From contig CALHBJ010000001.1 in the NCBI GenBank assembly GCA_937930845.1, forward strand, positions 1-64,000: a stretch of DNA of 64,000 bases. The letters are read 5' to 3'. The notes below the pieces were generated by a model, which saw only the letters and a list, made by a program, of their open reading frames with translations, made no database searches and was not told where the DNA came from. Positions within the stretch are counted from its first letter, which is position 1. Each line of letters begins with the position of its first letter. The translations under genes and the position numbers were made by a program. The DNA comes from an uncultured Rhizobiaceae group bacterium (GTDB lineage: Bacteria > Pseudomonadota > Alphaproteobacteria > Rhizobiales > Rhizobiaceae). Shown in pieces: positions 32,772 through 62,865 of the stretch.

Positions 32772-34346
32772 TTGAACAAGCGGCCCAATTTCGTATTCAT
32801 CGTCACCGATCAGCAGCGCGCCGACTGGCTGGGATGTTACGGGCATCCCGTGCTGAAAACACCCAATATCGATGCGATTGCCGCCAGGGGAACCCGTTTC
32901 AACAATTTTCATGTGGCATCGCCCGTGTGCATGCCCAACCGGGCATCACTGTTGACCGGGCGCTATCCGTCCCTACACGGCCTGCGCTACAATGGGTGCC
33001 GCCTGCCCCTTTCTGCCAACACATTTGTCGATCTTTTGGCTGGTGCCGGGTATCACACCGCCGCCATTGGCAAGAGCCATCTGCAACCCTTTACGGACCT
33101 GCCGCCCATCGGGCGAAGTGCCGACGATATCTGCTCGAAGGCCGAGGCCTGGAAAAGTGACGGCGGCAGTTACACCCAGGAAGAACCGGGCCGCTATCGC
33201 GAAGACGGACGCTACGAAATTCAAACCCCCTATTATGGCTATCAGCACGTGGACATGGTGACCTCCCATGGCGACCGGTGTGGTGGTCATTACCTGCAAT
33301 GGTTCCGGCAAAACGCGCCTGATTGGGAAGCGCTGCATGATGATGCCAATCAGTTGCCGCATAATTATTCCTGCCCCCAGGCCTATCGCACTCCGATACC
33401 GGAGGATCTGTATCCAACGGCCTATGTGCGCGACCGCGCCATCGATTATCTGAATTCGCGTATTGGCGAGGACGCCCCGTTCTTTACCTTCGTTTCATTT
33501 CCCGATCCGCACCATCCCTTTAACCCGCCGGGCAAATACTGGGATATGTATTCGCCCGATGATTTCGATGTGTCCCTGCCCTATTCGGCTCACAAAAACC
33601 CACCCAAGCCGCTGCAATGGTTGCGCCAGAACTGGGAAAATGGTGGTGGCCAAACAACTCCCCAAACGGCCATGATGTTGGACGAGCAGCAATTGAAAGA
33701 GGCCATGGCGCTGACGGCGGGAATGATGGCTTTCATAGATGATGCGGTGGGCGACATCATGAATTGCCTGACGGAAAACGGGCAGATGGAGAATACGGTC
33801 GTTTGCTACAATTCCGACCACGGCGACTATCTGGGCGATTTCAACATGCTGTTGAAAGGCGCATTGCCGTTTCGCAGCATCACCCGCGTTCCGTTCATCT
33901 GGTCAGACCCGGACAACCGTACACCATCTGCTTCAAACGCACTCGCATCGACAGTCGATCTGGCCGCAACGATATTGGACCGTGTGGGGCTTGAAACGTT
34001 TAACGGCAATCAAGGCAAGAGCTTCAAATGCGCCCTTGGAGGCAAACTTGAGGGCAAAGATGGGGTTCGTGATGAATTGCTCATTGAATATAATGACGGG
34101 GGAAACCGTTTGGGGTTCGAAACGCCCGCCAGAGTGCGCGCATTGGTGACGCCGCACTGGCGTTATACGATCTACCGGGATCAGGATTGGGGCGAATTGT
34201 ATGACCTGCGCAATGACCCGCTGGAAACGCACAACCTTTGGGAAAGTGCGGACCACTTCACCATCCGCGCTAACTTGGCTGAACGCATGAACCATCATCT
34301 GACCGCACAGATGGATGAAAGCCCCCAGTCGGAGCGGGTTGCCTGA
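32772..34346 (+). CDS. Type I sulfatase family hydrolase
   Basis: A 524-residue sulfatase. The active-site motif SPVCMPNRASLLTGR holds Cys53-x-Pro55-x-Arg57, the form converted to formylglycine. Metal ligands are suggested by VTDQQRADWLG (Asp13, Gln14) and NSDHGDYLGD. It starts with TTG, because AGGA lies seven bases upstream and no in-frame ATG exists. There is no signal peptide, so it should be cytoplasmic. It lies 70 bases after the TRAP permease and may act on an imported sulfate or phosphate ester; alternatively it belongs with the glycosyltransferase genes that follow. No formylglycine-generating enzyme gene is in the window. It is not a close BetC (choline sulfatase) match by motif. 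Confidence 0.9.
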   Translation: MNKRPNFVFIVTDQQRADWLGCYGHPVLKTPNIDAIAARGTRFNNFHVASPVCMPNRASLLTGRYPSLHGLRYNGCRLPLSANTFVDLLAGAGYHTAAIGKSHLQPFTDLPPIGRSADDICSKAEAWKSDGGSYTQEEPGRYREDGRYEIQTPYYGYQHVDMVTSHGDRCGGHYLQWFRQNAPDWEALHDDANQLPHNYSCPQAYRTPIPEDLYPTAYVRDRAIDYLNSRIGEDAPFFTFVSFPDPHHPFNPPGKYWDMYSPDDFDVSLPYSAHKNPPKPLQWLRQNWENGGGQTTPQTAMMLDEQQLKEAMALTAGMMAFIDDAVGDIMNCLTENGQMENTVVCYNSDHGDYLGDFNMLLKGALPFRSITRVPFIWSDPDNRTPSASNALASTVDLAATILDRVGLETFNGNQGKSFKCALGGKLEGKDGVRDELLIEYNDGGNRLGFETPARVRALVTPHWRYTIYRDQDWGELYDLRNDPLETHNLWESADHFTIRANLAERMNHHLTAQMDESPQSERVA

Positions 34347-34462
34347 TATCTTTTACTCCAGATAACGGTTCATAAAGTTAGGCTTGGCCAAATTGGATGC
34401 GCCATGTGAAGATGGGCGGTAAAATTTCGAAGTTGAATTCGCTGTTCAAACGGGAACAAATA

Positions 34463-35242
34463 ATGGCTGCTGACCCAAATATTGCCAGGACGAAAGTGCT
34501 CATTTTGACTCCGGTGAAGGATGCCGAAATCTATCTGGATCGCTATTGGAAACTGATACAGCAGTTGGACTGGCCAGGCGAAAACCTTTCAATCGGCCTG
34601 CTGGAAGGTGACAGCGAAGATGCAACCTGGGACCGGCTTGGCGAGATGGTGCCAGCGATGGAGGCTCATTTGGCCCGGGTGACGCTGGTGAAAAAGGAAT
34701 TCAACTTCCGCATTCCCAACGGCATTCCCCGCTGGGAACGGGCTTTCCAAAAAGCGCGCCGGGAAGTGCTTGCCAAAGCGCGCAATCATCTGCTGATGCG
34801 CGCGCTGCAGGACGAAGACTTTGTATTGTGGCTGGACGTGGATGTTGTTGACTATCCCCGGAGCACGATCGAAACATTGATCCGGTCTGGACTGGATATT
34901 GCGCACCCAAATTGTGTGCTCAAACCTGGTGGAAAGAGTTTCGACCTAAATGCCTGGGCCGACGGCGGCAAGAAAACCCTTTCCGATTTCCGAGGGCATG
35001 ACGGGCCTGTGCGTCTTGAATCCGTGGGTGGTACGATGCTGTGGATTCGTGCTGATTTGCATCGCGATGGACTGATTTTTCCGCCCTACCCCTATGGGGT
35101 GGAATGCTCTGCGATCCGCAAGCCCCATCCTGTTTGGGGGGCGGGTGAAATCGAAACTGAAGGCTTGGCCATGATGGCGCGTGACATGGGACACCAGTGT
35201 TGGGGCCTGCCGGATTTTGAGATTATTCATGACAGCGACTGA
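34463..35242 (+). CDS. Anp1-like (GT62-type) glycosyltransferase
   Basis: A 259-residue GT-A fold enzyme resembling the fungal Anp1/Mnn9/Van1 mannosyltransferases. The features are VLILTPVKDAEIYLDRYW at the start, LSIGLLEGDSEDATW, and the metal-binding DVDVVDYP with Asp125/Asp127 followed by SGLDIAHPNCV. The ATG at 34463 has GGGAA seven bases before it. Bacterial members are sparse and uncharacterised. It overlaps the nucleotidyltransferase gene by 14 bases. The donor is presumably a nucleotide sugar such as GDP-mannose, but that is inference. Confidence 0.82.
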   Translation: MAADPNIARTKVLILTPVKDAEIYLDRYWKLIQQLDWPGENLSIGLLEGDSEDATWDRLGEMVPAMEAHLARVTLVKKEFNFRIPNGIPRWERAFQKARREVLAKARNHLLMRALQDEDFVLWLDVDVVDYPRSTIETLIRSGLDIAHPNCVLKPGGKSFDLNAWADGGKKTLSDFRGHDGPVRLESVGGTMLWIRADLHRDGLIFPPYPYGVECSAIRKPHPVWGAGEIETEGLAMMARDMGHQCWGLPDFEIIHDSD

Positions 35243-36404
35243 CCCGGGTTCTGCCAAACCGGCGCATGATGAAATCCAAGGGCACGCCACCGCAACGGGT
35301 GAAGGCCTGGCGTTATTGCGCGAAATCCTGAAATTTGGTGATGATTGGGAACATACTCACCGAATACGCGAACGCTTGTTCCAGCCGGGTGGTTGGGATC
35401 TTGTCTTTGCTGCGGCCAGTGAGACGCGGCTCCTGCCTGCCCTGATCGACCATGTGAAACAAAAACAGCTCCTGCCGCCTTTTCCAATTCCTGTGGCGGA
35501 GGGGTCAATGCACCCCAATGACATCATGGAATTGCAATCGGGGTATCATGCGCAACGGCGCACCGAATTGCGCGATGCGCTGTTGGCAGCCGTGGGTGCA
35601 CTCAACAAGAGTGGTATCACCCCCACATTGCTCAAAGGTGCCCGCTATTTGTGGACTGGCACCAATGAGACGCGGACCATGCGGGACATTGATCTCCTTG
35701 TCCCTTCTAACGCCGCCCATGAGTCAAATGCTGCGCTGCTTCAAATTGGCTATGCTGCCACGGGTGAAGATGCCGAGCGCACCAGCCGACACCACATGCC
35801 TTCCTTGTTTCACCCGGATCGGCCCGGATGGATTGAACTGCACCGCCAAGCGGGCAACGCTTATGCTGAATCCGTATTTTCAACACATAGTTTATTTGAA
35901 AGCGAAAATATTTTTGAAAGCAAAGGCATAGAGGCTGCCTTGCCCACCATGGCGGCGCATATCTGGCATGGCGTGGTGCACCATTACTTTGGCCATAGCG
36001 GGTTTGCTCGCGGTGAAATTCATCTCAAACCCCTCTACGAATTCAGCACCGCCTTGATGCATATCGACAGGGCGATATTTGCCGAAATCGAAGGGTTTGC
36101 TGCAAACAGCAATGTGGCGCGCGCATGTCTTGAATTGTGGGTTGCCGCTGCCCAGAACGGGCTTGGCGCCGAACAACCCTTCCTGTTTCAACCATCTGAA
36201 AAAGCGCGACAACTGGCCATAAAGAACCTCGACAGGAGCCAGTCCCAACTGCCGCAAGACGGCAAATATCCAGGCTATCGGGAACTTTTGAAACTGGCCT
36301 GGAGCTCGGAAATTCGCGCACGTTCAAACTGCTCAGGTCAATTTGCCGATGGACGACTGACCGACCTTCGCATTCTCGCCCCGAAGATTAAATTTGTGGG
36401 TTAG
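35229..36404 (+). CDS. Nucleotidyltransferase family protein (NTP_transf_5)
   Basis: A 391-residue protein of the NTP_transf_5 family. The core is TPTLLKGARY (residues 131-140) followed by ETRTMRDIDLLVP, where Asp153 and Asp155 would bind metal; later come HRQAGNAY and HIWHGVVHHYFGHS. Members recur beside PqqD-like proteins and HprK-related kinases, and in some lasso-peptide clusters, suggesting nucleotide transfer to a peptide or intermediate; no reaction is proven for this group. Its stop codon overlaps that of the convergent GT2-TPR gene, so the two operons abut. Confidence 0.85.
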   Translation: MTATDPGSAKPAHDEIQGHATATGEGLALLREILKFGDDWEHTHRIRERLFQPGGWDLVFAAASETRLLPALIDHVKQKQLLPPFPIPVAEGSMHPNDIMELQSGYHAQRRTELRDALLAAVGALNKSGITPTLLKGARYLWTGTNETRTMRDIDLLVPSNAAHESNAALLQIGYAATGEDAERTSRHHMPSLFHPDRPGWIELHRQAGNAYAESVFSTHSLFESENIFESKGIEAALPTMAAHIWHGVVHHYFGHSGFARGEIHLKPLYEFSTALMHIDRAIFAEIEGFAANSNVARACLELWVAAAQNGLGAEQPFLFQPSEKARQLAIKNLDRSQSQLPQDGKYPGYRELLKLAWSSEIRARSNCSGQFADGRLTDLRILAPKIKFVG

Positions 36405-37528
36405 CCATTTGACGCCGCTGAAAATGCGGCTTGCTTGATTGCATATTCGGCAACACCAGGTTCCAGCAAATTTGCTGAACGATAATCTTCAACGGCGCGG
36501 TCGTGTTGCCCAAGGCGGACAAACACATCGCCACGCAAATTATGGGCCCATGATCCAAATATGCGTTTGTCATAGGATGTCAGCGGATCAACAAAAGTAT
36601 GGGCGTCGATTCCAATCAAACCATCAAGGGTTGCAAGAAGGCTTTCGGCTTCGCCCAGTTTGAACCGTGCGGTGGCTTCCAGAAGTTCAAGGGCTTTGTT
36701 GTTGGGATGGCCTTTGCGGTTCTCCTGGCACAAATCCAGCGCCGCTTCTGCATCACTTTCAAGCAGGTGGTGAATGAGTAATATTGCCGCCTGGGCCCCA
36801 TCCGCATGCTGTTTTTGTCCGCGGATGGAAAGTCTCGACAGGCGAATGGCTTCTTTTAACGCCACCACCGCGGCCTGTGGCTGGTTGACCGCCAACAATG
36901 TTTCACCAAGATTGCACCAAAGGTAGACCCGCGCCGGGTTTTCCTTGACCGCCTGTTGCAGCAAGGGGAGATTGCGTTCGTGCTTATGGGCCAGATCGCC
37001 TTCATATCCCAGGTGCTGGATTTCAACATCACAATCCAACACATCAAATTTGCCGGTATCCACAAGGCTTCGTATATGTGGGTGAACGGTTTCGTGAATG
37101 CGCCCCTGAAACCGTATGGCGTCCATGCGCCGGAACAGCCGCACTTCGCGATAGGGCGTGAATTCCACGCGCGGGCGGAACAACACTTCAAGAGAAATGT
37201 TGTTGGGCTGGCGCAATTGCTCGCCCACAATGCTGTTTGGCGGCACCGACAGGCGTTCATCGGCATCAATGTATAAAATCCAGTCGCAGGTGGCTTTTTC
37301 AAGGCCCACATTGCGTGCTGCTGAAAAGTCTCCCACCCAGGGGTGATGAAACAGCTTCACATCAAATTTTTTGCAAATTTCTAAGGTGTCATCGGTCGAC
37401 CCGGTGTCAACGATGACAATTTCACTGACAAATTGTGAAACGGATTCCAGGCAACCCGCAACAAAGCCCGCCTCATTGCGAACGATGAGACAGGCGGTTA
37501 CCGGTTGCCTTGGGCAATCAGCCAGCAA
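36401..37528 (-). CDS. Glycosyltransferase family 2 with C-terminal TPR region
   Basis: A 375-residue protein. Residues 10-190 are a GT2 domain (ACLIVRNEAGFVAGCLESV, IVDTGSTDDTLEI, YIDADERL with the DxD). Residues 200-370 are helical TPR-like repeats (ARVYLWCNLGETLLAVNQPQAAVVALKEAIRLS, and GDVFVRLGQHDRAVEDYRSANLLEPG). Such proteins are often peptide or protein O-glycosyltransferases. It is the last gene of the PqqD-HprK operon, 18 bases after the small peptide gene. It starts with TTG; an alternative start close by cannot be excluded. Confidence 0.88.
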   Translation of the reverse strand: MLADCPRQPVTACLIVRNEAGFVAGCLESVSQFVSEIVIVDTGSTDDTLEICKKFDVKLFHHPWVGDFSAARNVGLEKATCDWILYIDADERLSVPPNSIVGEQLRQPNNISLEVLFRPRVEFTPYREVRLFRRMDAIRFQGRIHETVHPHIRSLVDTGKFDVLDCDVEIQHLGYEGDLAHKHERNLPLLQQAVKENPARVYLWCNLGETLLAVNQPQAAVVALKEAIRLSRLSIRGQKQHADGAQAAILLIHHLLESDAEAALDLCQENRKGHPNNKALELLEATARFKLGEAESLLATLDGLIGIDAHTFVDPLTSYDKRIFGSWAHNLRGDVFVRLGQHDRAVEDYRSANLLEPGVAEYAIKQAAFSAASNG

Positions 37529-37546
37529 GAAGTTTGTTATTTCAAC

Positions 37547-37750
37547 TTAGGAAGACGTTGCTGAATTCGACAACACTATCATCTGTGCCCAGGCATTGGA
37601 TGTCTTGAGCGACCCAAGTGAGAATGTCGTCACCGCAGGGACAACCCAAACGGCTTTAGCAAGCGTTGAAAGTGTTTCACGCTTATCTGCATCAAACTCT
37701 TTTGAAATCTTGTTTTCGATTTCAGCGAGTTTCTTACTTTCATTGGACAT
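37547..37750 (-). CDS. Small Ser/Thr-rich peptide, candidate substrate of the PqqD-HprK system
   Basis: A 67-residue peptide with no homologue I recognise. The first 25 residues are charged (SKEFDADKRETL); then comes a semi-hydrophobic stretch (AKAVWVVPAVTTFSLGSLKTS) and a tail ending SNSATSS. It has no Cys. Overall it resembles short peptides with a degenerate Tat-like N terminus (KRETLSTLAKAVWVVPA) and a possible cleavage site after NAWA. Ser/Thr residues abound after position 40, giving many sites for phosphorylation or O-glycosylation. Two ATGs compete; the second (37750) has GGAG eight bases upstream. It overlaps the 3' end of the kinase gene and precedes the GT2-TPR gene, so it belongs to the operon. 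Confidence 0.8.
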   Translation of the reverse strand: MSNESKKLAEIENKISKEFDADKRETLSTLAKAVWVVPAVTTFSLGSLKTSNAWAQMIVLSNSATSS

Positions 37751-38600
37751 GGTCATTCTCCGACAATCCTAGACGATTCAACAGCTTGTAGACTATTGAC
37801 GAGACCCTATCAAGAGCCCCGCAATTCAATTCATATAACGGGACACTGCTTAATAAGTGCCTTACCGCAATGATTCCGGCAAATCTGTCATTTTCCGGCA
37901 ATAGGGTGTTGTCGAGAATACGCTGGGTAATTGCCTCTTCCCCCATTGCTTTTATGGATGAAAAACCGCCGTGATTGGGCTTGAGAACAATGATTGCCGA
38001 TATGGGGAGGGAGCGGATTTTCCAGGGTCGCCCAAACACTTGCGGCGATACGGCATAGATTTTTCGGCTGTGCCAGTCCTCAATGAACGGGCTTTGCTCG
38101 ATGGCAGACCGCAATTTGGCGGGCATGAGCTTCAGGCTGCCCTGTTTGAGACGCAGGGTTCTGGGGCGCGTGATACCGTGCAATCCGTTCAGCAAGACGT
38201 GCTCGTCACCACAGACTTCCAGTCCTGCATGCCCCAGCCATCCCATGAGTGTCGATTTACCAGCGCCTTTGTCGCCGAAAATCAGCATCATTTTCCCGCC
38301 AACGGCCAGAGACCCGGCATGCAGCAGCGGAGATTGGGGGAATTCCAGGCGGCTTTGAATAAAATGCCAAGTGTGCAGGTCGGACAATATGTGGCTCAAA
38401 TCGCCTTCGGACGCATAGTTATCGGTCAATGGCAGGCGATAATAGCCCTGCACTTCCTGCAATTGGACAGGCTTCGGCTTTGCCGAAAACCCATCGATAC
38501 TGGGTGTCGCATCAATGAACTTGAGCGCTTCGTGGGATTTTAGATCAGGGCATTCAATTTCAAGGCGTTGCCTGAGCGTGCTAACACTGACTGTTAGCAC
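37740..38600 (-). CDS. HprK-related kinase (HPr-rel-A type)
   Basis: A 286-residue protein related to HPr serine kinase. The family core SPLLHAGSLAVGGKMMLIFG leads into a Walker A GDKGAGKST (residues 109-117) and then CGDEHVLL, the equivalent of the HprK Asp pair. No HPr or PTS gene is near. HprK-like kinases in lasso-peptide clusters phosphorylate the peptide at serine, which supports a peptide substrate here. The start is taken as a GTG whose bases overlap the stop of the PqqD gene (GTGCTAA), indicating translational coupling; the frame is open 13 codons further upstream. Confidence 0.87.
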   Translation of the reverse strand: MLTVSVSTLRQRLEIECPDLKSHEALKFIDATPSIDGFSAKPKPVQLQEVQGYYRLPLTDNYASEGDLSHILSDLHTWHFIQSRLEFPQSPLLHAGSLAVGGKMMLIFGDKGAGKSTLMGWLGHAGLEVCGDEHVLLNGLHGITRPRTLRLKQGSLKLMPAKLRSAIEQSPFIEDWHSRKIYAVSPQVFGRPWKIRSLPISAIIVLKPNHGGFSSIKAMGEEAITQRILDNTLLPENDRFAGIIAVRHLLSSVPLYELNCGALDRVSSIVYKLLNRLGLSENDHVQ

Positions 38601-38869
38601 GGTGTGATCAAGCCCTTGCCGACGAGATCTTCCAGACACTTTTCGACCTCAGTGACAGGCATGTCCGGGAGGTCGAACTTTGCTCCAAGGTAAAGGGAAA
38701 TTTCCTCGGCGGTGAGTTTGGCGCTGCATAGGGCCAAAACCAGGGACGCCGTTGGATTGAGGTAATGCACCTGTTCCTCGCCTTCCTGATAGACCACATA
38801 GCCATCTGGCATCAGTTTCAGATCGTTTTCGTTGGCGATTTGATATTTCGGTGCAATTGAAGAAGTCAT
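38594..38869 (-). CDS. PqqD-like peptide chaperone (RiPP recognition element)
   Basis: A 91-residue protein with the PqqD fold: YQIANENDLKLMPDGYVVYQEGEEQVHYLNPTASLVLALC, then LTAEEISLYLGAKFDLP and EVEKCLEDLVGKGLI. PqqD proteins bind a leader peptide and deliver it to modifying enzymes. Position between a glycosyltransferase and the HprK-related kinase identifies it as the HPr-rel-A type. Start from the ATG at 38869; a weak site only is visible. Confidence 0.9.
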   Translation of the reverse strand: MTSSIAPKYQIANENDLKLMPDGYVVYQEGEEQVHYLNPTASLVLALCSAKLTAEEISLYLGAKFDLPDMPVTEVEKCLEDLVGKGLITPC

Positions 38870-38905
38870 GATACCAATTCGGGTGCCGGTTTAGTTTTTT
38901 CAACA

Positions 38906-40162
38906 CTATCTAAACTGTGTAAAAATGCCAGACAGCCGGTCAACCGCCGTGTTGATATTGTGCAACCGGTTCACAAATTGCCAGGCATTGTTGGCGCGGC
39001 GCATCCGCTCTGCCGGTTGCGCCAACGCTTCACAAATTGACTTGGCAAAGGCAGTGGGTGAATTGGCAATCCAACAATGTTCGCCATCGGCGAATTCCAG
39101 ACCTTCCGCCCCGATGGCGGTTGTAACAACGGGCACACCCAAAGCTGCACTTTCCAATATCTTGATTCGCGTACCCGCCCCCAGGCGCAGGGGCACCACG
39201 GCGATGGCAGCGCGTTCGTATAACGGGCGCAGGTCTGCCACATCGCTGAGCAGGTTCATCCCAGGAGCTTGTGCCAGTTTGCGCAAATGTTTTGACGGTG
39301 ACTGACCGACAATGGTTATATTTGCATTGGTGAAAGACTGGACCCTTGGCCAGACATTTTGGATAAACCATTCCAGGCCGTCTGCATTGGGCAAATAGTT
39401 GAGTGAGCCAACGAACAAAAGCTCCTCACCATTTTGATCCGATTTTGGTGCCGTTGGTACAAAAACCGAATTTACCACCGTTTCGAAACCAGTGCCGGTA
39501 TCGCGCGACAAAAGTTCTGCTTCTTTGTCGGAACTTGCAAACACGCGATCAAAACTTGCCACATTCGCAGCAATCAGAGTTTTGAAAGCGCGCGCTTCAC
39601 ATGCGGTCCATTTTGCATTTTCTGTCTCCCCCCGCGCCTCGAAATGGCGCGCCAGATCGGTGTTGAATCGAGCGTCATCCTCATCAAGATCAAGAGTGAG
39701 CGTTGGGTTTGTCTGGCCTTTGTCGTCAAGTTGCCGCACCAGTGAACGGACAAATGGGGCGCAATAGCTGCGCATGGCATGCACATGCAGATAGTTTTGG
39801 CCGCGCAATGTAGCAGCGCAGAGCCGCGCCAGATCATCCGTTAAATTGGCACACAGGCTTGGTAATCCGTAAGCTGCAAATGCTGCACACCGTTGTTTGG
39901 GATCTTCGATCCGCCGGATCAGGTCAAAATGCGTACTGGGCGCGAAATCGCCATCTATCGTTTCAAATGCAGGTTTGGTGGCCGCTTCATCATGCCTGGC
40001 CAATTGTGGTTTTGCCTGGGCTATCGGAACCAGCAAAACATCGGTTTGGAATACGCGGTGTAAGGCGCGCCAGAACATGAAGGCCCGCTGGGCCAATCCG
40101 TTCCCATTAGGGTCAGGTGCAATGGGGGAAATGAAGAGGCATTTGGGAACCGGCGTCACCAT
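38906..40162 (-). CDS. Glycosyltransferase family 4-type protein
   Basis: A 418-residue GT-B glycosyltransferase. The N-terminal stretch [25 protein letters not shown] is typical; the C-terminal nucleotide-sugar site reads [40 protein letters not shown] in outline. The ATG at 40162 overlaps the stop of the GT71-like gene (ATGGTGA), so they are coupled. Donor and acceptor unknown. Confidence 0.88.
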   Translation of the reverse strand: [418 protein letters not shown]

Positions 40163-41658
40163 GCCTTGGTGCGCCAATCCTGATAGCCTGTAGCCAGAGT
40201 TCCGCTTTGTTTGTCCGGTGCACGATTGGCAGGCTCAGGAACCGCTTGCAGAACCGCAGCCGCAATCTGCGCCAATTGGGGTGACAGATCGGCCAATGCT
40301 GAAACCGCCGGTCGCACACCAGGTTCGGCGCGCAATAACAGGGTCAAGGCACCGCACAGTTCCGCCCGGGACGCCTCCCCTCCATGGCTGATGTCACACG
40401 CTTCAACCAGTTGCGCAACCAATCCACTGACCGGCTCGCGCTGCTGGCCTTCTGCTTCATCCCTCTCATGAAGGGCGATCGCTGGAGAGGGTTTTTGATG
40501 TTGGTTCCCTTGCCACGTCCCGTCTTCCAGTTTTTTCAAAACAAAGAAAATCTGATCATTGGCCTCGATGATCAGTTCGAACGCATGATCGCGCTCAAGC
40601 ACATACCAGTTTTGACGATCCAGGCTGCGGCCCTGGCCAATTTCGTGGCTGGGCAGAAGTTCAATGGTTTCATCCCTGTCGCCGATAAATTCCAAACGAT
40701 ACGCCCCGCCCTGGGCAAGTCGAGCTTCCTCATTGCGGGCAGAAATCGTGCGGTCTGGCGGATAAAACATCACTCCGTTCCATTTCTGCCGCAGCTCTTC
40801 CACGTAGGTGCGACAGGTTTCGCCATGCTGCTCACCGTCGAATTGAACCTGTTTGCCCCGATACATCCATTTCGCGTTGGTGCGGTGCTGAAAAAGCGGA
40901 TTTCCCTCAAAGTCCCGCTGGGTCAGCGTTCGTTCGGTCAAGAATGGCCGATGGGGAACCAGCTCAAAATCGGCATCATCCATCAAGAAGCCAACCAGGA
41001 ACGTATCCTTGTCGCCATAGATGGTTGCGTAGATTTCTTCCTTCATCTCGTTAATCGCCACTATTTTTTTCAAAGCTGAAAGGTGTCGATTTCGGTCGAT
41101 CAGAACCTGACCACTTTCAAAAGAGGGCACGCACCGGCCTTCCAATCCAAGTTGTGACCAGATCGGATTGTCCTCGCGGATGTCGAGAATATCAGGCCAG
41201 AACACAGCCCCTGATGATTTAAACTGCGCAAATTCAAACACCGAAGCCGGATTCAGGACAGGCACCTGATCGGCATCGAGGAACAGCGCCTGGGCGAAGC
41301 TGCTATACAAAAGCGCCAGCGCTTTGAGTTGCCAGCCATCGTGAATATCGGCGTCCAGATGGGACAAGACGGATCGTGCGTCGATAAATGTAACGTCGTA
41401 GGGGCGCAGCAATTGGCGCATGATGGGCGTTATTTCACCCTCACCATAGTGCCACACTTCAATGGGCAATGTGCAGTTCAATTCCTCGCGCAACAAGCGC
41501 ACAAGCACGTATCCGTTCGTAAAGTGACGCACACCGCCAAACGCCGTGACAATGCCTTGCCCGTTAAAGGCTTTTGGCGTGGGAAGCCGCTGTTCCCGCT
41601 TCAATATCTCATCGAGCAAAGGCAGGCTCTGGTTTGTCAAATCGGTCAAAATTGCCAT
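40156..41658 (-). CDS. MNN1/MNN2-like (GT71-type) glycosyltransferase
   Basis: A 500-residue protein whose first 310 residues resemble fungal alpha-mannosyltransferases of the MNN1/MNN2 family: GQGIVTAFGGVRHFTNGYVLVRLLRE, CTLPIEVWHYGEGE, QLKALALLYSSFAQALFLDADQVPV (DxD at 128-130), AVFWPDI, and SFESGQVLID. The C-terminal 190 residues are of a different, low-conservation nature and may be a separate binding domain. Bacterial members are rare and uncharacterised. It overlaps the next gene, GT4, by seven bases. Confidence 0.82.
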   Translation of the reverse strand: MAILTDLTNQSLPLLDEILKREQRLPTPKAFNGQGIVTAFGGVRHFTNGYVLVRLLREELNCTLPIEVWHYGEGEITPIMRQLLRPYDVTFIDARSVLSHLDADIHDGWQLKALALLYSSFAQALFLDADQVPVLNPASVFEFAQFKSSGAVFWPDILDIREDNPIWSQLGLEGRCVPSFESGQVLIDRNRHLSALKKIVAINEMKEEIYATIYGDKDTFLVGFLMDDADFELVPHRPFLTERTLTQRDFEGNPLFQHRTNAKWMYRGKQVQFDGEQHGETCRTYVEELRQKWNGVMFYPPDRTISARNEEARLAQGGAYRLEFIGDRDETIELLPSHEIGQGRSLDRQNWYVLERDHAFELIIEANDQIFFVLKKLEDGTWQGNQHQKPSPAIALHERDEAEGQQREPVSGLVAQLVEACDISHGGEASRAELCGALTLLLRAEPGVRPAVSALADLSPQLAQIAAAVLQAVPEPANRAPDKQSGTLATGYQDWRTKAW

Positions 41659-41758
41659 CGGTTCATGTGGTTCCTGATCTGCAAAATTTCACTCCCTCCG
41701 ATGAATGGCAAGCCCCGGACAAGGCTAAACAAGCCAATCTTTATGAGGCCGGTGGCGC

Positions 41759-42892
41759 TTATGCATTGGCTGAAGGCACATTTAGGGAAAGCCCGACCAG
41801 TGGCCGGGTGACTTTCGTTTGATCCAGCGCGAAATAAAGCGCGTAAGACACAATGAAAGTGCCAAGGGTCAGCACCCCCCATTCAATCCCCCAGGGCCAG
41901 CTAACTTCGCGCAAATAGTACAGGCCCACCATCATGATTGGGAAATGCAGAATAAACACGGGATAAACGGCGCGGTTGAGACGCAACAATATCCCACTTG
42001 GTCTATTGAGATTGTGATGGGCAAAACCAAAGACGATTGCGCACCAGATGACCGCGTTTGCCGAATAGGCCACGCTGTGTATCGCAGTGATCGTGTTTTG
42101 ATAGGGACGCCCTTGCGCCAGCCATCCGCCATTTGACAGCAGACCCGCATCGGCTGCCGGATAGGCCGCATAAATGGGCATGAAAGCCAGCGACATTGCC
42201 ACACCGATGACCAACAACGGCCAACGCCATCTGGCCAAACGTGTCCAGAACTGTTCACTTTGGGCCATTGCGATGTAACCGGCAAAAAAGAAAGGGATGT
42301 ACCAGAAATCGCGATAATCCAGCGGACGATCATAGCTTAAGGGTTTGAGTATCAATTCAATAGTGACGGCTGTACCAAACAGTCCAAGCGCAAATTTCAC
42401 CAGCCCAATGTCTCCCATACGGCGAAAGAGTGGCGCCAACAGCATAAGCAGCAGGCCGTAAAGAAAGAGATTGATCAAAAACCAAAGATGGCGGGCATGC
42501 CCCCAACGGGGTTCCAACAGCCATTGTCTGTAAAATGAAACCAGACCCGGTTCGTTCCCACTTGCCAGTTGGAAATAGTAGCCATGGGCCACATTCCAAA
42601 CCAGCACAGCGACAAGCAAGGACAAAAGCAGCCTGATCATCCGGTTTTTCAAAAACCGCCATGTGCCGTGCTTCAGCAGGAACCAGGATCCCACTCCAGA
42701 GATCATGAACAATGCCGGTAAGCGCCAAGTGTGGCTGAAGAAAATCAGCATCTCCAGCCATTCGCCGGCAATATCCTGGTTGCGGTAGCCATAGACATTA
42801 CCGCCATAGCGAACAAACCCGATGGCGGCGTGATAGGGAACCAGCAGGCCAAATAACAGCACTCTTAGCCAGTCTAGATCGTATCTGCGCAT
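41759..42892 (-). CDS. Acyltransferase 3 family membrane protein
   Basis: A 377-residue polytopic protein of the acyltransferase 3 (OafA/OpgC/NodX-like) family. The N terminus RRYDLDWLRVLLFGLLVPYHAAIGF carries the conserved Arg-x(9-12)-His; about ten membrane helices follow. Members transfer acetyl or succinyl groups to surface glycans. It lies 100 bases upstream of the GT71-like gene on the same strand and may be the first gene of the operon, or separately transcribed. Confidence 0.88.
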   Translation of the reverse strand: MRRYDLDWLRVLLFGLLVPYHAAIGFVRYGGNVYGYRNQDIAGEWLEMLIFFSHTWRLPALFMISGVGSWFLLKHGTWRFLKNRMIRLLLSLLVAVLVWNVAHGYYFQLASGNEPGLVSFYRQWLLEPRWGHARHLWFLINLFLYGLLLMLLAPLFRRMGDIGLVKFALGLFGTAVTIELILKPLSYDRPLDYRDFWYIPFFFAGYIAMAQSEQFWTRLARWRWPLLVIGVAMSLAFMPIYAAYPAADAGLLSNGGWLAQGRPYQNTITAIHSVAYSANAVIWCAIVFGFAHHNLNRPSGILLRLNRAVYPVFILHFPIMMVGLYYLREVSWPWGIEWGVLTLGTFIVSYALYFALDQTKVTRPLVGLSLNVPSANA

Positions 42893-54964: not shown

Positions 54965-56215
54965 ATGCGGTATTCGGGTTTCAGGGTCATTAAAGAGGCG
55001 TTGACGGGCCACAAGGGTTGGAAACCAACCTGGCGCGATGCTGAACCGCAGCCAGAATACGATATCATCATAATAGGTGGCGGTGGCCATGGTTTGGCGA
55101 CTGCCTATTACCTTGCAAAACAGTTTGGTCAGAAACGAATTGCCGTTGTTGAAAAGGGCTGGATCGGTGGCGGCAATGTGGGGCGCAACACGACCATTAT
55201 TCGTTCCAACTATATGTTGGATGGAAATGAGCCCTTCTATGAGTTCTCGTTGAAGCTTTGGGAAGGTCTCGAACAAGACTTCAATTACAATGCAATGGTC
55301 AGCCAACGGGGGATATTGAATCTCATCCATTCAGACCCTCAACGCGATGCATTCGTGCGGCGCGGCAACGCGATGATTTTGAATGGTGCTGATGCTGAGT
55401 ATCTCAGCCGCGAACAACTGCAGGAAGAATTGCCGTTTTTGAACTATGACAACGCGCGCTTCCCCATCAAGGGCGGTTTGGCTCAACGTCGGGGCGGCAC
55501 AGTGCGCCATGATGCCGTTGCATGGGGTTATGCAAGAGGCGCTGACCAGCATGGTGTGGACATTATTCAAAACTGTGAAGTCAAAGGTATCCGTCAGAAA
55601 AACGGAAAAGCAATCGGCGTTGAAACGTCACGCGGTTTTATCGGTGCCAAGAAAATTGGCTGTGCTGTGGCTGGTAATTCCAGCCGCATAATGGGCATGG
55701 TCAATCGCAAACTGCCGATTGAAAGCCATGTTCTGCAAGCCTTCGTTTCGGAAGGGTTGAAGCCCGTTCTTCCTGGCGTGATCACATTTGGCGCGGGCCA
55801 TTTTTATGTCAGCCAATCGGACAAAGGTGGCTTGGTGTTTGGCGGCGACATCGACGGCTATAATTCCTATGCCCAAAGAGGCAACCTGCCCGTCGTTGAA
55901 GACGTGTGCGAAGGCGGGATGGCCATAATGCCAATGATTGGTCGAGCCCGTGTGTTGCGTATGTGGGGGGGTGTGATGGACATGTCCATGGACGGCTCGC
56001 CCATCATCGACAAGACCGACATTGAAGGGCTCTATTTCAATGGCGGCTGGTGTTACGGCGGCTTCAAAGCCACGCCGGCATCCGGTTGGTGCTTTGCGCA
56101 TCTATTGGCGAAAGATGAGCCCCACGAAACTGCAACGGCCTATCGATTTGATCGGTTCCACAAGGGATTGATGATCGACGAAAAAGGCATGGGCGCACAG
56201 CCCAACCTGCATTAG
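54965..56215 (+). CDS. soxB: Sarcosine oxidase subunit beta
   Basis: A 416-residue flavoprotein, the catalytic beta subunit of heterotetrameric sarcosine oxidase. The N-terminal RYSGFRVIKEALTGHKGW is typical, followed by the dinucleotide fold IIIIGGGGHGLATAYYLAKQFG and, at the end, GLYFNGGWCYGGFKATPASGW. It oxidises sarcosine to glycine and a methylene group. GAGGTG precedes the ATG. First gene of soxBDAG. Confidence 0.97.
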   Translation: MRYSGFRVIKEALTGHKGWKPTWRDAEPQPEYDIIIIGGGGHGLATAYYLAKQFGQKRIAVVEKGWIGGGNVGRNTTIIRSNYMLDGNEPFYEFSLKLWEGLEQDFNYNAMVSQRGILNLIHSDPQRDAFVRRGNAMILNGADAEYLSREQLQEELPFLNYDNARFPIKGGLAQRRGGTVRHDAVAWGYARGADQHGVDIIQNCEVKGIRQKNGKAIGVETSRGFIGAKKIGCAVAGNSSRIMGMVNRKLPIESHVLQAFVSEGLKPVLPGVITFGAGHFYVSQSDKGGLVFGGDIDGYNSYAQRGNLPVVEDVCEGGMAIMPMIGRARVLRMWGGVMDMSMDGSPIIDKTDIEGLYFNGGWCYGGFKATPASGWCFAHLLAKDEPHETATAYRFDRFHKGLMIDEKGMGAQPNLH

Positions 56216-56227
56216 GGGAGACCAAAA

Positions 56228-56515
56228 ATGATCATAAACCACCCTCTCCTTGGCCCTCGCGACAGCCAGGAATTCACCTATCTCGGCGATATGTCACTCA
56301 TCAATCGTCCGGATTGGGAAGCTGACGATGCAGTCGACCAGTTCCATGAATATCTCTATTTGCGAGACAATCCTGCTGGCGAACACAAGGAACTTTGGTT
56401 CCATGAACAAGGCGACAGATCGTGGCTGGTTGTGACACGCAATACGCTCACTCATGACATCACAAAGGTTGAGATCGCCAAGGATATCGCCAGACAAATG
56501 GGGCGTTCGAAATGA
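56228..56515 (+). CDS. soxD: Sarcosine oxidase subunit delta
   Basis: A 95-residue delta subunit. The sequence HPLLGPRDSQEFTYLGDM and LYLRDNPAGEHKELWFHEQGDRSWLVVTRNTLTHDI is characteristic; the zinc-binding cysteines found in some delta subunits are not present here (the N-terminal CPxC is replaced). GGGGAGA is seven bases before the ATG. The end overlaps the soxA start (ATGA). Confidence 0.95.
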   Translation: MIINHPLLGPRDSQEFTYLGDMSLINRPDWEADDAVDQFHEYLYLRDNPAGEHKELWFHEQGDRSWLVVTRNTLTHDITKVEIAKDIARQMGRSK

Positions 56516-59463
56516 CCCAGAACAACCGTCTCGAAGGTGGTTTGATAGACCGCTCCAAAACTCTTAGATTCACGTTTGATGGAAAGACCTACCAGGGCCA
56601 TCAAGGAGACACGATTGCCTCTGCGTTATTGGCAAATGACGTGCGGCTCATGGGACGCAGCTTTAAATATCATCGCCCGCGTGGTCCGTTGACGGCAGGG
56701 TCGGAAGAACCAAATGCACTGGTTGAACTGCGCGAAGGAAATCGACAGGAACCAAACACGCGCGCCACAACTGCAGAGCTTTTCGACGGCCTGTCGGCGA
56801 AAAGCCAAAACCGCTGGCCCTCACTTTCTTTCGACGCGATGGGTGTAAATGACCTGCTGTCGCCGTTTTTCGCGGCCGGTTTCTATTACAAGACATTCAT
56901 GTGGCCAAAGGCATTTTGGGAAAAACTGTATGAACCCATCATCCGTCGCGCAGCGGGTTTGGGTTCATTGTCCATGGAGGCCGATCCTGATGTTTATGAC
57001 AAAGGCTTCCTCCATTGCGATCTCCTGATCATTGGAGCAGGCCCCGCCGGATTGTCGGCCGCATTGACGGCTGGGCGCGCCGGTGCCCGTGTCATCCTGG
57101 CCGAAGAAGACTTTCTTCTGGGTGGACGACTAAACGCTGAAACATTTGAGATTGCCGGAATGGCTGGACATGCCTGGGCAGCACAAACACAGGCTGAACT
57201 GGCTTCCATGGACAATGTGCGCATCATGACACGCACGGCCATTCTTGGGGCTTTCGACCACGGCATCTATGGTGCTCTGGAGCGTGTTTCGGACCATCTG
57301 GCCGTACCGGCTGCGGGCAAACCGCGTCAGACTCTGTGGCGCATTTATGCCAAGCGAACCATGCTCTGCGCCGGTGCTGTTGAACGCCCCATCGCCTTCA
57401 AAAACAATGACCGACCAGGCATCATGTTGTCAGGGGCTTTAAGGACATATGCAAACCGATATGCCGCGGCGGCTGGGCAAACTGTTGCGCTGTTTACAAA
57501 CAATGATGATGGCCTGCGCAGTGCAGCCGACCTCGCTGCAAAAGGCGTAGATGTAGTCGCTGTTATCGACACACGTGCAGATGGGCCATCAGTTCAAGCT
57601 GGTGCCCATTTCAAAGGGGCGCAGGTCGTTGATGCGGGCGGCAAGCTTGGCTTGAACACGATCACGATCAAGCTCGCCAATGGCCAAACGACCCGGATCA
57701 ATTGCACGGCACTTGGTGTATCTGGCGGCTGGAATCCCAATGTTCATCTCACCTCCCATCAGCGTTCCACGCCGAAATGGGATGAGAAAATTGCTGCATT
57801 TGTGCCGGAATCAACGCCTGCTGAGATGAGTGTCGCTGGCGCTGCAAATGGCGACATGTCAACGCATGCTGCATTGGCAAATGGCGCCAAGCAAGCGGTT
57901 ACGGCGCTTAAAGACATTGGCATCAAGGCGACAGCTGGCAGGACACCAAAAGCTGAAGATGAACCTATCAACGTGTCGCCGTTTTGGTATGTGGAACATA
58001 AGGGCCGCGCCTGGGTGGATCAGCAAAACGACGTGACCGTCAAAGACATCAAACTCTCCCACCAGGAAGGGTTCAGGTCGGTTGAGCATCTCAAGCGTTA
58101 TACGACACTTGGCATGGCAACGGACCAAGGCAAGACGGCCAATGTACCCGGCCTCGCCATCATGGCGGAAATGACGGGCAAGAGCATTCCAGATACTGGG
58201 ACAACCATGTTCCGCCCTCCCTATGCACCCACATCATTTGGTGCATTTGCGGGCCGTCACCGCGATGAAGACTTCAGACCCATACGCAAAACTCCATCCC
58301 ACAAATGGGCCGAGGAACATGATGCTGTATTTGTGGAAACGGGAATGTGGTTGCGCGCCCAATGGTTCCCTAAACCGGGCGAGACCCATTGGCGTGAAAG
58401 TGTAGATCGCGAAGTTCTTGCAACGCGAAAATCCGTTGGCATTTGCGATGTTACCACCCTGGGGAAGATTGATGTGCAAGGCACTGATGCCGCGACCTTC
58501 TTAAACCGCGTTTATTGCAATGCGTTTGCAAAACTTGCCGTTGGAAAAACACGTTATGGCTTAATGTTGCGCGAAGACGGGATTGCAATGGATGATGGCA
58601 CCACAGCCCGGCTTTCTGAAAACCAGTTTGTGATGACCACGACCACGGCAAACGCAGTGCCTGTGTTCAGGCATCTGGAATTTTGCCGGCAATGCGCGTG
58701 GCCCGACCTTGATGTTCAGCTGATTTCCACCACAGAGGCCTGGGCACAATATGCGGTCGCAGGACCAAATTCGCGCAAGCTTCTCCAAAAAATTGTCGAT
58801 AAGGACTTCGACATTTCAAACGAAGAATTCCCGTTCATGGGCTGTGGTGAAATTACCGTGTGCGGAGGTTTGCGCGCCCGCCTCTTCCGCATTTCTTTCT
58901 CTGGGGAGTTGGCCTTCGAAATTGCTGTTCCAACACGCTATGGCGATTCAATGATGCGAGCCCTCATGGAGGCCGGCGAAGAATTTGACGTTGTGCCATA
59001 CGGTACGGAAGCTCTCGGTGTCATGCGCATTGAAAAAGGTCACGCTGCGGGTAACGAACTGAACGGAACAACAACAGCGCTTAACCTTGGAATGGGGCGT
59101 ATGGTGTCAAAGAAGAAAGACTCCATAGGTTCAACTTTGTCCGAACGAGAGGGCTTGAACCAGGCAGATGCACTAAACCTGGTTGGCTTCAAACCCGTCA
59201 ATTCTGACGAGACGTTTTCGGCTGGCTCGCATTTCATCAACTCCGATGCGCAGGCCAATGCAGCCAATGATCAGGGATATATGACGTCAGTTTGTTATTC
59301 ACCAAATCTGGGGCATACGATCGGTCTTGGCTATTTGAAAGATGGTGCCAACCGCATGGGCGAAACCACTCGCGCGGTAAATCCGCTCATGGGTGAGGAA
59401 ACCGAAGTGGAAATTGTCAGCGCTCACTTTATTGACCCGGAAGGAGAACGTCTGCGTGCTTAA
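56512..59463 (+). CDS. soxA: Sarcosine oxidase subunit alpha
   Basis: A 983-residue alpha subunit, normal length. Residues 15-110 form the ferredoxin-like N-terminal domain; residues 160-480 contain the NAD/FAD fold (LLIIGAGPAGLSAALTAGRAGARVILAEED); from about residue 600 comes a GcvT-type aminomethyltransferase domain that passes the methyl carbon to tetrahydrofolate (GIAMDDGTTARLSENQFVMTTTT, PYGTEALGVMRIEKGHAAG). It is coupled to soxD by overlapping start and stop codons. Confidence 0.97.
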   Translation: MTQNNRLEGGLIDRSKTLRFTFDGKTYQGHQGDTIASALLANDVRLMGRSFKYHRPRGPLTAGSEEPNALVELREGNRQEPNTRATTAELFDGLSAKSQNRWPSLSFDAMGVNDLLSPFFAAGFYYKTFMWPKAFWEKLYEPIIRRAAGLGSLSMEADPDVYDKGFLHCDLLIIGAGPAGLSAALTAGRAGARVILAEEDFLLGGRLNAETFEIAGMAGHAWAAQTQAELASMDNVRIMTRTAILGAFDHGIYGALERVSDHLAVPAAGKPRQTLWRIYAKRTMLCAGAVERPIAFKNNDRPGIMLSGALRTYANRYAAAAGQTVALFTNNDDGLRSAADLAAKGVDVVAVIDTRADGPSVQAGAHFKGAQVVDAGGKLGLNTITIKLANGQTTRINCTALGVSGGWNPNVHLTSHQRSTPKWDEKIAAFVPESTPAEMSVAGAANGDMSTHAALANGAKQAVTALKDIGIKATAGRTPKAEDEPINVSPFWYVEHKGRAWVDQQNDVTVKDIKLSHQEGFRSVEHLKRYTTLGMATDQGKTANVPGLAIMAEMTGKSIPDTGTTMFRPPYAPTSFGAFAGRHRDEDFRPIRKTPSHKWAEEHDAVFVETGMWLRAQWFPKPGETHWRESVDREVLATRKSVGICDVTTLGKIDVQGTDAATFLNRVYCNAFAKLAVGKTRYGLMLREDGIAMDDGTTARLSENQFVMTTTTANAVPVFRHLEFCRQCAWPDLDVQLISTTEAWAQYAVAGPNSRKLLQKIVDKDFDISNEEFPFMGCGEITVCGGLRARLFRISFSGELAFEIAVPTRYGDSMMRALMEAGEEFDVVPYGTEALGVMRIEKGHAAGNELNGTTTALNLGMGRMVSKKKDSIGSTLSEREGLNQADALNLVGFKPVNSDETFSAGSHFINSDAQANAANDQGYMTSVCYSPNLGHTIGLGYLKDGANRMGETTRAVNPLMGEETEVEIVSAHFIDPEGERLRA

Positions 59464-60028
59464 ACATTCTCTGAAACCCCTCACCCCACTTGGCAGCGAT
59501 GAACCTGACAGCACTGTTATTGGCAATCTAAAAATTACCGAACGGGATGATTTTTCATTCGCCTCGATTGCACAACGCGATGGCAAGTCGCGCCCGTTTG
59601 CTGCGGCGGCAAAACGCGCATTCAATTTGAAACTTCCTGGGCCCGGACAAAGTGCTTCCAACGGAGACTACACTTTATTCTGGTCATCTCCCGAACAATG
59701 GTTTGTGGAAGCTCCGATGGCCACACATGAGGACATTGCTTCAATTCTCAAAGCTGAGTTTGAAGAATCCGCGTCCATTACAGAGCAATCAGGCGGCTGG
59801 TGTCGTTTTGACTTGGAAGGAGACGCCAGCGTCAGCACCCTTGAAAGGTTATGCGCCGTTGATACAGCAATGATGACTGATCAGGCTGCAACCCGTTCAG
59901 TGATTGAGCATATCGGTGTTTTTATAGTTTGCAGAAGTGCGGGCCAATATTTCAGCATCTATGGGCCACGTTCATCGGCAGGTTCCCTGCACCATGCTTT
60001 GGTATCAGCAGCTAAAAGTGTTGCCTAA
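59456..60028 (+). CDS. soxG: Sarcosine oxidase subunit gamma
   Basis: A 190-residue gamma subunit. It begins at a GTG that overlaps the end of soxA (eight bases), with AAGGAG nine bases upstream; a longer frame exists but would lie within soxA. Features include SIAQRDGKSRPFAAAAKRAFNLKLPGPGQS and EQSGGWCRFDLEGDASVSTLERLCAVD. Its stop overlaps that of the convergent regulator gene. Confidence 0.93.
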   Translation: MLKHSLKPLTPLGSDEPDSTVIGNLKITERDDFSFASIAQRDGKSRPFAAAAKRAFNLKLPGPGQSASNGDYTLFWSSPEQWFVEAPMATHEDIASILKAEFEESASITEQSGGWCRFDLEGDASVSTLERLCAVDTAMMTDQAATRSVIEHIGVFIVCRSAGQYFSIYGPRSSAGSLHHALVSAAKSVA

Positions 60029-61032: not shown

Positions 61033-61128
61033 AAGTTCCTATATAGCCGCTATTCCATTGGGTGCGATGGACTTTTTTTATTTAAAAGAACAGAATATTC
61101 CTGCCAGTGATAATTATTGAGAGTTTCT

Positions 61129-61800: not shown

Positions 61801-61812
61801 TCGAAGATTGTC

Positions 61813-62856: not shown

Positions 62857-62865
62857 AGTTGTCTC

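Follow-up and report, generated by a model that had tools for sequence, protein, structure and literature searches.

Gene content of the locus

A compact gene cassette lies at positions 34397-42892 of a 64,000-nucleotide stretch of DNA from an uncultured Rhizobiaceae group bacterium (contig CALHBJ010000001.1, positions 1 to 64,000; hereafter the window). It combines a small peptide gene with a PqqD-like protein of the RRE type (RiPP recognition element, RiPP standing for ribosomally synthesized and post-translationally modified peptide), an HprK-like kinase, a putative nucleotidyltransferase and several glycosyltransferases. The cassette is best read as a modified-peptide system; judged from its sequence, the gene set seems made for adding sugars, and in many cases phosphate, at the tail of the dedicated small peptide.

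The coordinates and families of seven minus-strand open reading frames (ORFs) recognized in an initial annotation, from an acyltransferase 3 gene to a GT2 glycosyltransferase with a TPR domain (GT2-TPR), were confirmed by an ORF check and by family library scans. A GT62 glycosyltransferase gene, absent from that annotation's list, lies on the plus strand, its 3' end overlapping the start of the NTP_transf_5 gene. The features are as follows.

34397-35242, plus strand: GT62 (Anp1/Mnn9-like) glycosyltransferase (PF03452, 2.7e-43)
35181-36404, plus strand: NTP_transf_5 putative nucleotidyltransferase, convergent (PF14907, 2.2e-17)
36401-37528, minus strand: GT2-TPR, SunS/ThuS/GmaR-like (TIGR04195, PDB profile and Foldseek matches)
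37547-37750, minus strand: candidate precursor peptide of 67 residues (ORF, motif WVVPAV)
37740-38639, minus strand: HprK-like kinase, 299-residue ORF (TIGR04352, 4.9e-8, below cut-off)
38594-38869, minus strand: PqqD-like discrete RRE (PF05402, 29.1 bits, cut-off 23.4)
38906-40177, minus strand: GT4 glycosyltransferase (PF13692, 1.4e-25)
40156-41658, minus strand: GT71-like (Mannosyl_trans3) glycosyltransferase (PF11051, 2.1e-36)
41759-42892, minus strand: acyltransferase 3 (Acyl_transf_3; PF01757, 3.2e-24)

These genes overlap or nearly do so. The peptide ATG at 37750 is placed inside the end of the kinase gene, with an 11-nucleotide overlap, and the true kinase start may be a GTG at 38600, inside the end of the PqqD gene and overlapping its stop codon; in the predicted model of the longer kinase ORF, residues 1-8 have a pLDDT below 50.

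Conservation and gene order

A search of 397 genomes of the order revealed long kinase homologues (E < 1e-16) in five genomes besides that of the window. All five carry the cassette, some incompletely: locus L040 (genome G337) has no visible NTP_transf_5, and in genome G366 the main locus, L039, lacks GT4, which sits at L038 alongside an additional kinase and an additional GT71. We also used the GT62 alignment alone to scan 84,980 species genomes (two short patterns, non-exhaustive), so that the scan carried no bias toward the peptide. It matched 147 stretches, 61 of which were confirmed as loci, and the other cassette families were called in these with profiles derived from the window and L035-L040. 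Eighteen of the 61 have the kinase, and every one of the 18 also has PqqD and the peptide; L052, with PqqD and peptide but without a kinase, brings the peptide loci to 19. Neither kinase nor peptide was found in any of the remaining 42, which include other uses of GT62, such as long ORFs in Streptomyces and Azospirillum, as well as short contigs (L055, L063) that carry other cassette genes and end before the peptide. L053 and L071, two of these 19, lie on the contigs that had supplied the training loci L036 and L039; the other 17 lie outside the first peptide model. Duplicates (L036 and L196, equal to L053; L039, equal to L071; L183, equal to L052) were removed before counting. The initial annotation had staked its reading on joint conservation of the PqqD, kinase and peptide genes in relatives, and this was seen in all 18 kinase loci. 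The co-occurrence of glycosyltransferases with these genes, on which it had also dwelt, held as well, with GT4 in 18/19 and GT71 in 17/19 peptide loci, all located through GT62.

Gene order is likewise conserved. Among 23 locus maps, the window included, the row PqqD-HprK-peptide(s)-GT2-TPR occurs in 18, and its extension GT71-GT4-PqqD-HprK-peptide(s)-GT2-TPR is unbroken in 14, while the peptide is followed by GT2-TPR in 22. The exceptions to the four-gene row are L037 and L053, with GT71, GT4 and a second kinase interposed; L052, which has no kinase; L067, with PqqD elsewhere; and L064, where the contig ends in GT2. An NTP_transf_5 gene convergent with GT2-TPR and directly after it is a common arrangement.

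By record title the hosts are mainly alphaproteobacterial (Devosia, Bradyrhizobium, Phreatobacter, Labrys, Oricola, Mesorhizobium and others), and three loci come from metagenome-assembled genomes labelled Actinomycetes. Within the window's own genus, neither GT62 nor the peptide was found in 14 other genomes, three of them less than 90% complete. The cassette is a patchy, accessory island, and we infer that it has spread by horizontal transfer.

Broader searches gave a sparser picture. The kinase was found at 1e-5 in 4 of the 289 genomes of a class-wide sample, the window's included and the other three weak, and not at all in the plasmid search. GT2-TPR matched six plasmid records over 52-62% of the query, and in relatives 14 of 60 other genomes matched over about the first 150 residues only. 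Besides the window, the peptide had five matches at 1e-4 to 1e-2 in the class sample, which look like chance, although L114 could alternatively be a distant relative. GT62 (< 1e-100) and the peptide (< 1e-5) coincide in the same 8 of the 397 genomes of the order, a coincidence that is partly circular because seven of the eight, all but G483, supplied rows of the peptide alignment. Weaker peptide matches in 13 further genomes of this sample include some that are, by context, real peptides of the two reduced versions described below (B and C).

The candidate precursor peptide

The window peptide has the core WVVPAVTTF, an AxA site at NAWA and the tail QMIVLSNSATSS. When 28 representative peptides were aligned, the core took the form [FWY]xxPx[VI], as a rule followed by [ST]F; all 28 have the Pro and an F as the second aromatic, and the first aromatic, counted by eye, is Y or W in 8 and F in 20. 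The motif reported for discrete lasso RREs is [Y/W]xxPx[L/V/I/F/A] (PMC13381572). The core is mostly followed by 16-27 residues; for the L066 group and L182 the counts are 52 and 72.

The leaders differ with the kinase. A [KR]Rx-hydrophobic pair was present in 32/32 peptides of loci with an intact kinase and in 0/7 kinase-free ones, and the same 32 peptides have a hydrophobic stretch (best 15-residue mean 1.35 to 2.47) and a loosely defined AxA-like site. For kinase-free peptides the corresponding value averages 0.92, with a range of 0.07 to 1.65 that overlaps that of the intact-kinase group. Several peptide genes occur in six loci (seven in L037, four in L075, three each in L053 and L108, two each in L068 and L073); multiple precursor genes in a row are a habit of RiPP precursors.

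Two unusual arrangements were noted. The peptide of L182 (9150-9425, minus strand), beside PqqD and GT2-TPR, has a tail that repeats VNCLNVASVT three times and is perhaps a multi-site core. At L194 (10330-12343), three ORFs near two HprK-like genes carry a common leader, WVKPVVNAVIPPAHAAASA, followed by long tails of low complexity enriched in G/S/T/N or A/P/T.

PqqD-like RRE, GT2-TPR and the tail asparagine

The PqqD-like protein scored above the PF05402 gathering threshold (29.1 bits versus 23.4), and its profile (A5) gave as best match TfuB1 (6jx3_B, E 1.1e-4), which we take to be a lasso RRE. Against TIGR04353 (PqqD_rel_X) the window protein reached 24.9 bits, below the curated cut-off of 35, and the PqqD of the kinase-free relative L178 reached 37.3.

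GT2-TPR is nearest to SunS/ThuS and GmaR, that is, to peptide glycosyltransferases, as judged by profile matches and by a predicted structure. Its best library match was TIGR04195 (SunS; 1.5e-25, 90 bits, below the equivalog cut-off of 350), and profile A3 matched PDB entries for GmaR best (2e-45, over the first 195 positions), with SunS at 5e-36. A Foldseek search with the AlphaFold model (pLDDT 93.7) placed SunS/ThuS structures, named there as S-glycosyltransferases, at all of ranks 1-6 (E 3.0e-18 to 8.8e-18, probability 1.00), with query TM scores of 0.63-0.65 at 19-22% identity, consistent with the SunS/ThuS fold. The next structure followed at 5.6e-8, about ten orders of magnitude worse, and GmaR was absent among the best 50 matches listed. 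GmaR takes part in flagellin O-glycosylation, and the enzymes of this group act on Cys and Ser/Thr.

All 42 peptides beside GT2-TPR have an Asn in the tail, a count that leaves out two peptide matches (L077, a 199-residue ORF, and L186). With one peptide per locus the figure is 27/27, compared with a mean of 16.8 and a maximum of 24 in 2000 composition-preserving shuffles, statistics that ignore kinship among the loci. Tail Cys is rare, occurring only in L108 and L182 among the 42, and Ser is richer in tails (10.4%) than in leaders (7.9%).

HprK-like kinase, NTP_transf_5 and residues near the asparagine

In the window kinase the catalytic residues H107, K128 and D145 (numbering of the 299-residue ORF) are present. 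The match to TIGR04352 (HprK-related kinase A) was 32.4 bits, below the curated cut-off of 200, and profile A4 matched HPr kinase 1ko7 at 6.7e-10. With the kinase model (pLDDT 93.2), Foldseek listed phosphoenolpyruvate carboxykinases first and HprK from rank 36; the two belong to one superfamily. For NTP_transf_5, no relative in PDB was found, and the residues K152, G153, R165, D169 and D171 are conserved in 17/17 homologues.

We compared loci according to the state of their kinase. The His, the P-loop Lys and the Asp are intact in 17 loci, and 16 of these have NTP_transf_5; the exception, L064, is on a contig that ends before the usual place of that gene. NTP_transf_5 is missing from all six loci whose kinases are exclusively degenerate; three of these (L066, L069, L080) are closely related, and L038 comes from a genome that also has an intact set. 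Counting a locus if any of its peptides qualified (in L075 only two of four do), a Ser/Thr at most four residues after an Asn was present in 17/17 intact-kinase loci and 4/12 others (Fisher p 1e-4), an N-x-S/T sequon in 14/17, the window not among them, versus 0/12 (p 1e-5), and a C-terminal Ser in 11/17 versus 0/12 (p 4e-4), all three p-values being nominal because the loci are related. Intact kinase, NTP_transf_5 and nearby Ser/Thr therefore tend to come and go together, as a sequence of phosphate and then sugar predicts. For precedent, PadeK is reported to phosphorylate its precursor at the C-terminal Ser, and in pseudomycoidin a hexose is added to the phosphate by PsmN, although a host enzyme for the sugar was not excluded (PMC9266682, PMC8498205).

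In L037 and L053 a second GT71 was observed together with a second HprK lacking the His and the P-loop Lys, a pseudokinase, adjoining the intact kinase.

Versions of the system

We grouped the loci into three versions, a division of our own. Version A, the window type, has PqqD, HprK, NTP_transf_5, peptide, GT2-TPR and further glycosyltransferases. In version B (L040, L052, L056, L177, L178, L180, L182) there are peptide and GT2-TPR, PqqD except in L180, and sometimes GT4, GT71 or GT62; NTP_transf_5 is missing and the kinase is absent or degenerate. Its leaders are mostly not signal-like, and the tails of six of the seven loci, all but L182, end in GN plus 0-2 residues. Two of these loci, L178 and L182, have just PqqD, peptide and GT2-TPR, adjacent, of the eight families searched. 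Version C (L184, L185) has HprK, NTP_transf_5 and a twin-arginine-like peptide, with no GT2-TPR; in L184 three such small peptides lie beside the kinase. The N-terminal part of the version C kinases (L184 7733-9708, L185 6854-8439) matches TIGR04353 weakly, below cut-off, hinting at a fused RRE. In addition, L179 and L181 have PqqD and a peptide of the GN-tail type, with no GT2-TPR in the 18 kb fetched.

The cassette modules seem separable. Although all seven genes of the initial annotation are present in the window, the set itself needs redrawing: it omitted GT62, a usual member that is nonetheless missing from some relatives; kinase and NTP_transf_5 are optional parts; and acyltransferase 3 is not conserved, with no homologue at 1e-5 in the 67 other loci searched, and is probably a local decoration gene rather than a core one.

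Glycan-building enzymes and neighbouring genes

The window GT62 is 53-58% identical to its homologues in five other loci, and its profile (A1) matched the Mnn9 structure 3zf8 at 1.9e-30. GT62 and GT71 are families known for chain building. Neighbour families were defined as ORFs of at least 150 residues common to at least three of 23 cassette loci; one with an FkbM-methyltransferase member lies near 9/23 loci (one member checked with Pfam) and a GT10 fucosyltransferase family near 7/23 (two members checked). The window has acyltransferase 3 in their stead. The product is most naturally read as a glycan of several sugars whose decoration varies.

An ORF at L040 6597-7529, with relatives at L052 8947-9951 and L056 3716-4657, lies directly downstream of GT2-TPR, at the place that NTP_transf_5 takes in version A; the L040 member weakly matches a sugar-transfer-associated ATP-grasp (PF14397), below cut-off. 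In the three loci labelled Actinomycetes (L066, L069, L080) the GT62 and GT71 profiles both match a single long ORF, possibly a natural fusion, and the kinases have lost the catalytic His and the P-loop Lys. A sulfatase gene (window 32772-34346, plus strand) directly precedes GT62; it was rejected as a core gene, having a homologue in only one of 67 other loci, L062 (4.5e-43), which is itself without the cassette. A defence system was also dropped as an explanation, none of eight cassette proteins matching PADLOC models. Farther away, at 54965-63828, the window has genes of methylated-amine type (a DAO oxidoreductase, sarcosine-oxidase-like, AraC/PfpI-type regulator, HODM-like and DmmA-like).

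Proposed pathway and alternatives

An RRE-guided glycopeptide pathway, directed by the PqqD-like protein, is the best explanation of the cassette, and a probable one. From the observed conservation, order and families of the genes, the motifs and the correlations, we infer its chemical steps, acceptor residues and export route as follows. The PqqD-like protein would bind the [FWY]xxPx[VI] stretch of the precursor and present the short C-terminal tail, to which the SunS/GmaR-like GT2-TPR would add a first sugar, with the conserved Asn as a possible acceptor. Chain elongation would fall to GT62, GT71 and GT4, and in the window acyltransferase 3 would decorate the chain. Where the kinase is catalytically intact, it would phosphorylate the Ser/Thr just after the Asn, often a C-terminal Ser, and NTP_transf_5 would cap the phosphate with a sugar, in the manner of PsmK and PsmN in pseudomycoidin. 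In the kinase-bearing type the leader resembles a twin-arginine or Sec signal with an AxA-like site at its end, so that the tail could be freed by housekeeping export and cleavage; as speculation, an RRE covering the hydrophobic stretch during modification might also delay export.

Several observations weigh against parts of this pathway. The Asn does not track GT2 strictly: it is present in 4/6 peptides without GT2-TPR nearby, among them those of L179 and L181, which have PqqD and no GT2-TPR within 3.5 kb, and 2/4 peptides with kinase and NTP_transf_5 but no GT2. The peptide models include the tail and may favour Asn-bearing peptides, the acceptors of SunS/ThuS and GmaR are Cys and Ser/Thr rather than Asn, and in the window the tail Asn is followed by S-A and forms no N-x-S/T sequon. 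In the core, L177 and L180, version B peptides outside the alignment, have Y and M at the second aromatic, and the F of 20/28 peptides falls outside the Y/W of the published RRE motif (PMC13381572). Version B peptides also occur in G632, G532, G406 and G471, genomes without a strong GT62 match; extension of the glycan by GT62 is therefore not universal and may differ there. Finally, no peptidase family is common to at least three of the 23 loci, and exporter parts near them are limited to one ABC ATPase family, Wzt-like by eye, in 4/23.

Within the RRE-guided pathway, a tentative but quite possible variant is that GT2-TPR O-glycosylates a tail Ser/Thr, as GmaR does, and that the Asn serves recognition only. 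GmaR is the best PDB sequence match of GT2-TPR, the enzyme's relatives use residues other than Asn, and tails are the Ser-richer part of the peptides. Most kinase-free tails, however, end in GN plus 0-2 residues (...YMGNQ in L177, ...ALALAGNV in L052), in which Asn is always present whereas Ser/Thr, judged by eye, have no set position. At the other extreme is a bolder form, a new class of RiPP, which we regard as doubtful as a whole. Here a SunS-like GT2-TPR would be directed to a peptide Asn by an RRE of the PqqD type, giving cytoplasmic N-glycosylation without an oligosaccharyltransferase; Mnn9- and Mnn1/2-family enzymes would build a yeast-like outer chain, an optional kinase/nucleotidyltransferase pair would add a second, phosphate-linked sugar, and the RRE would mask the signal-like leader until modification is complete.

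Two explanations outside the RRE-guided pathway are improbable, to a similar degree. The glycosyltransferases might make a surface polysaccharide or lipid-linked glycan, with PqqD, HprK, NTP_transf_5 and peptide travelling along as a separate phosphopeptide system like LPP of Bacillota; LPP and paeninodin clusters are often found in capsule loci (PMC13381572), and the Wzt-like ATPase family would fit such a setting. Arguing against this are L178 and L182, reduced to PqqD, peptide and GT2-TPR, the near-constant adjacency of peptide and GT2-TPR (22/23 maps) and the kinship of GT2-TPR with peptide glycosyltransferases. Alternatively, the peptide might be a primer or membrane anchor, with the glycan built on it in the cytoplasm and then displayed at the surface, held by the hydrophobic stretch. 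That stretch is indeed present in the 32 intact-kinase-locus peptides, and GT62 and GT71 are chain builders, but hydrophobicity is generally lower in kinase-free peptides, with an overlapping range, and the loose AxA-like site suggests cleavage.

Comparison with known systems

The initial annotation had linked the cassette to the HPr-rel-A system, and stated that NTP_transf_5 nearby is one of its marks. The likeness stands in that an HprK-like kinase, a PqqD relative and NTP_transf_5 are all present; by the curated cut-offs the label itself does not apply, the window proteins falling below those of both TIGR04352 and TIGR04353, and the cassette differs further in its conserved glycosyltransferase set. 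Its statement that this is not a lasso cluster was borne out, with neither an asparagine-synthetase-like macrolactam cyclase nor a B2 peptidase among the 32 window ORFs scanned or among shared neighbours, the latter judged by eye, with Pfam checks on four members from three families.

LPP is the nearest known system. As described (PMC13381572), it shares with the cassette an aromatic-xxPxV leader motif, a discrete RRE, an HprK-like kinase and an NTP transferase, and also a patchy spread and the lack of a macrolactam cyclase. The motif is WVVPAV in the window and aromatic-xxPx[VI] in 28/28 peptides, and RRE, kinase and NTP transferase are all found, if LppN is assumed to be like PF14907. LPP is described there as having an SpI-like leader peptidase and an MsbA-like exporter, neither of which was seen among the 32 window ORFs or the shared neighbours of 23 loci, whereas the cassette has conserved glycosyltransferases (SunS-like GT2-TPR, GT62, GT71), occurs mostly in Alphaproteobacteria and treats kinase and NTP transferase as optional. 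Pseudomycoidin and paeninodin (PsmK/PsmN, PadeK) share the kinase-nucleotidyltransferase pair and a similar RRE motif, and phosphate and then hexose are reported on the C-terminal Ser of those lasso peptides (PMC9266682, PMC8498205); the cassette differs in its short tail, its conserved glycosyltransferases and the lack of a cyclase or B2 peptidase noted above.

Glycocins (SunS, ThuS) likewise pair a small peptide gene with a GT2 peptide glycosyltransferase of this fold, but SunS and ThuS are S-glycosyltransferases, cassette tails rarely have Cys, and the cassette adds an RRE, a kinase and further glycosyltransferases. The match of GT62 to Mnn9 structure 3zf8 is a likeness to the yeast mannan enzymes, although the cassette is bacterial and its GT62 is encoded beside a peptide gene; in the yeast mannan outer chain, Mnn9 and Anp1 belong to GT62 and Mnn1 and Mnn2 to GT71. 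Fusions of RREs with glycosyltransferases were noted by RRE-Finder (PMC7470986) and by a later RRE survey (PMC12710340). No published description of this gene combination was recognized among the literature matches listed, in which subscription journals are thinly covered.

The cassette unites RRE-guided peptide modification, the kinase-nucleotidyltransferase pair of lasso and LPP systems and the glycosyltransferase families of yeast mannan. It supplies a candidate substrate for NTP_transf_5 and HprK-related proteins of this type, the cross-locus correlations predict residue-level sites for two enzymes, and the minimal systems of PqqD, peptide and GT2-TPR are small enough to test in E. coli. 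Compared with the systems above, the cassette is best placed among the RiPP-like modified peptides, and there is a real chance that it forms a class of its own.

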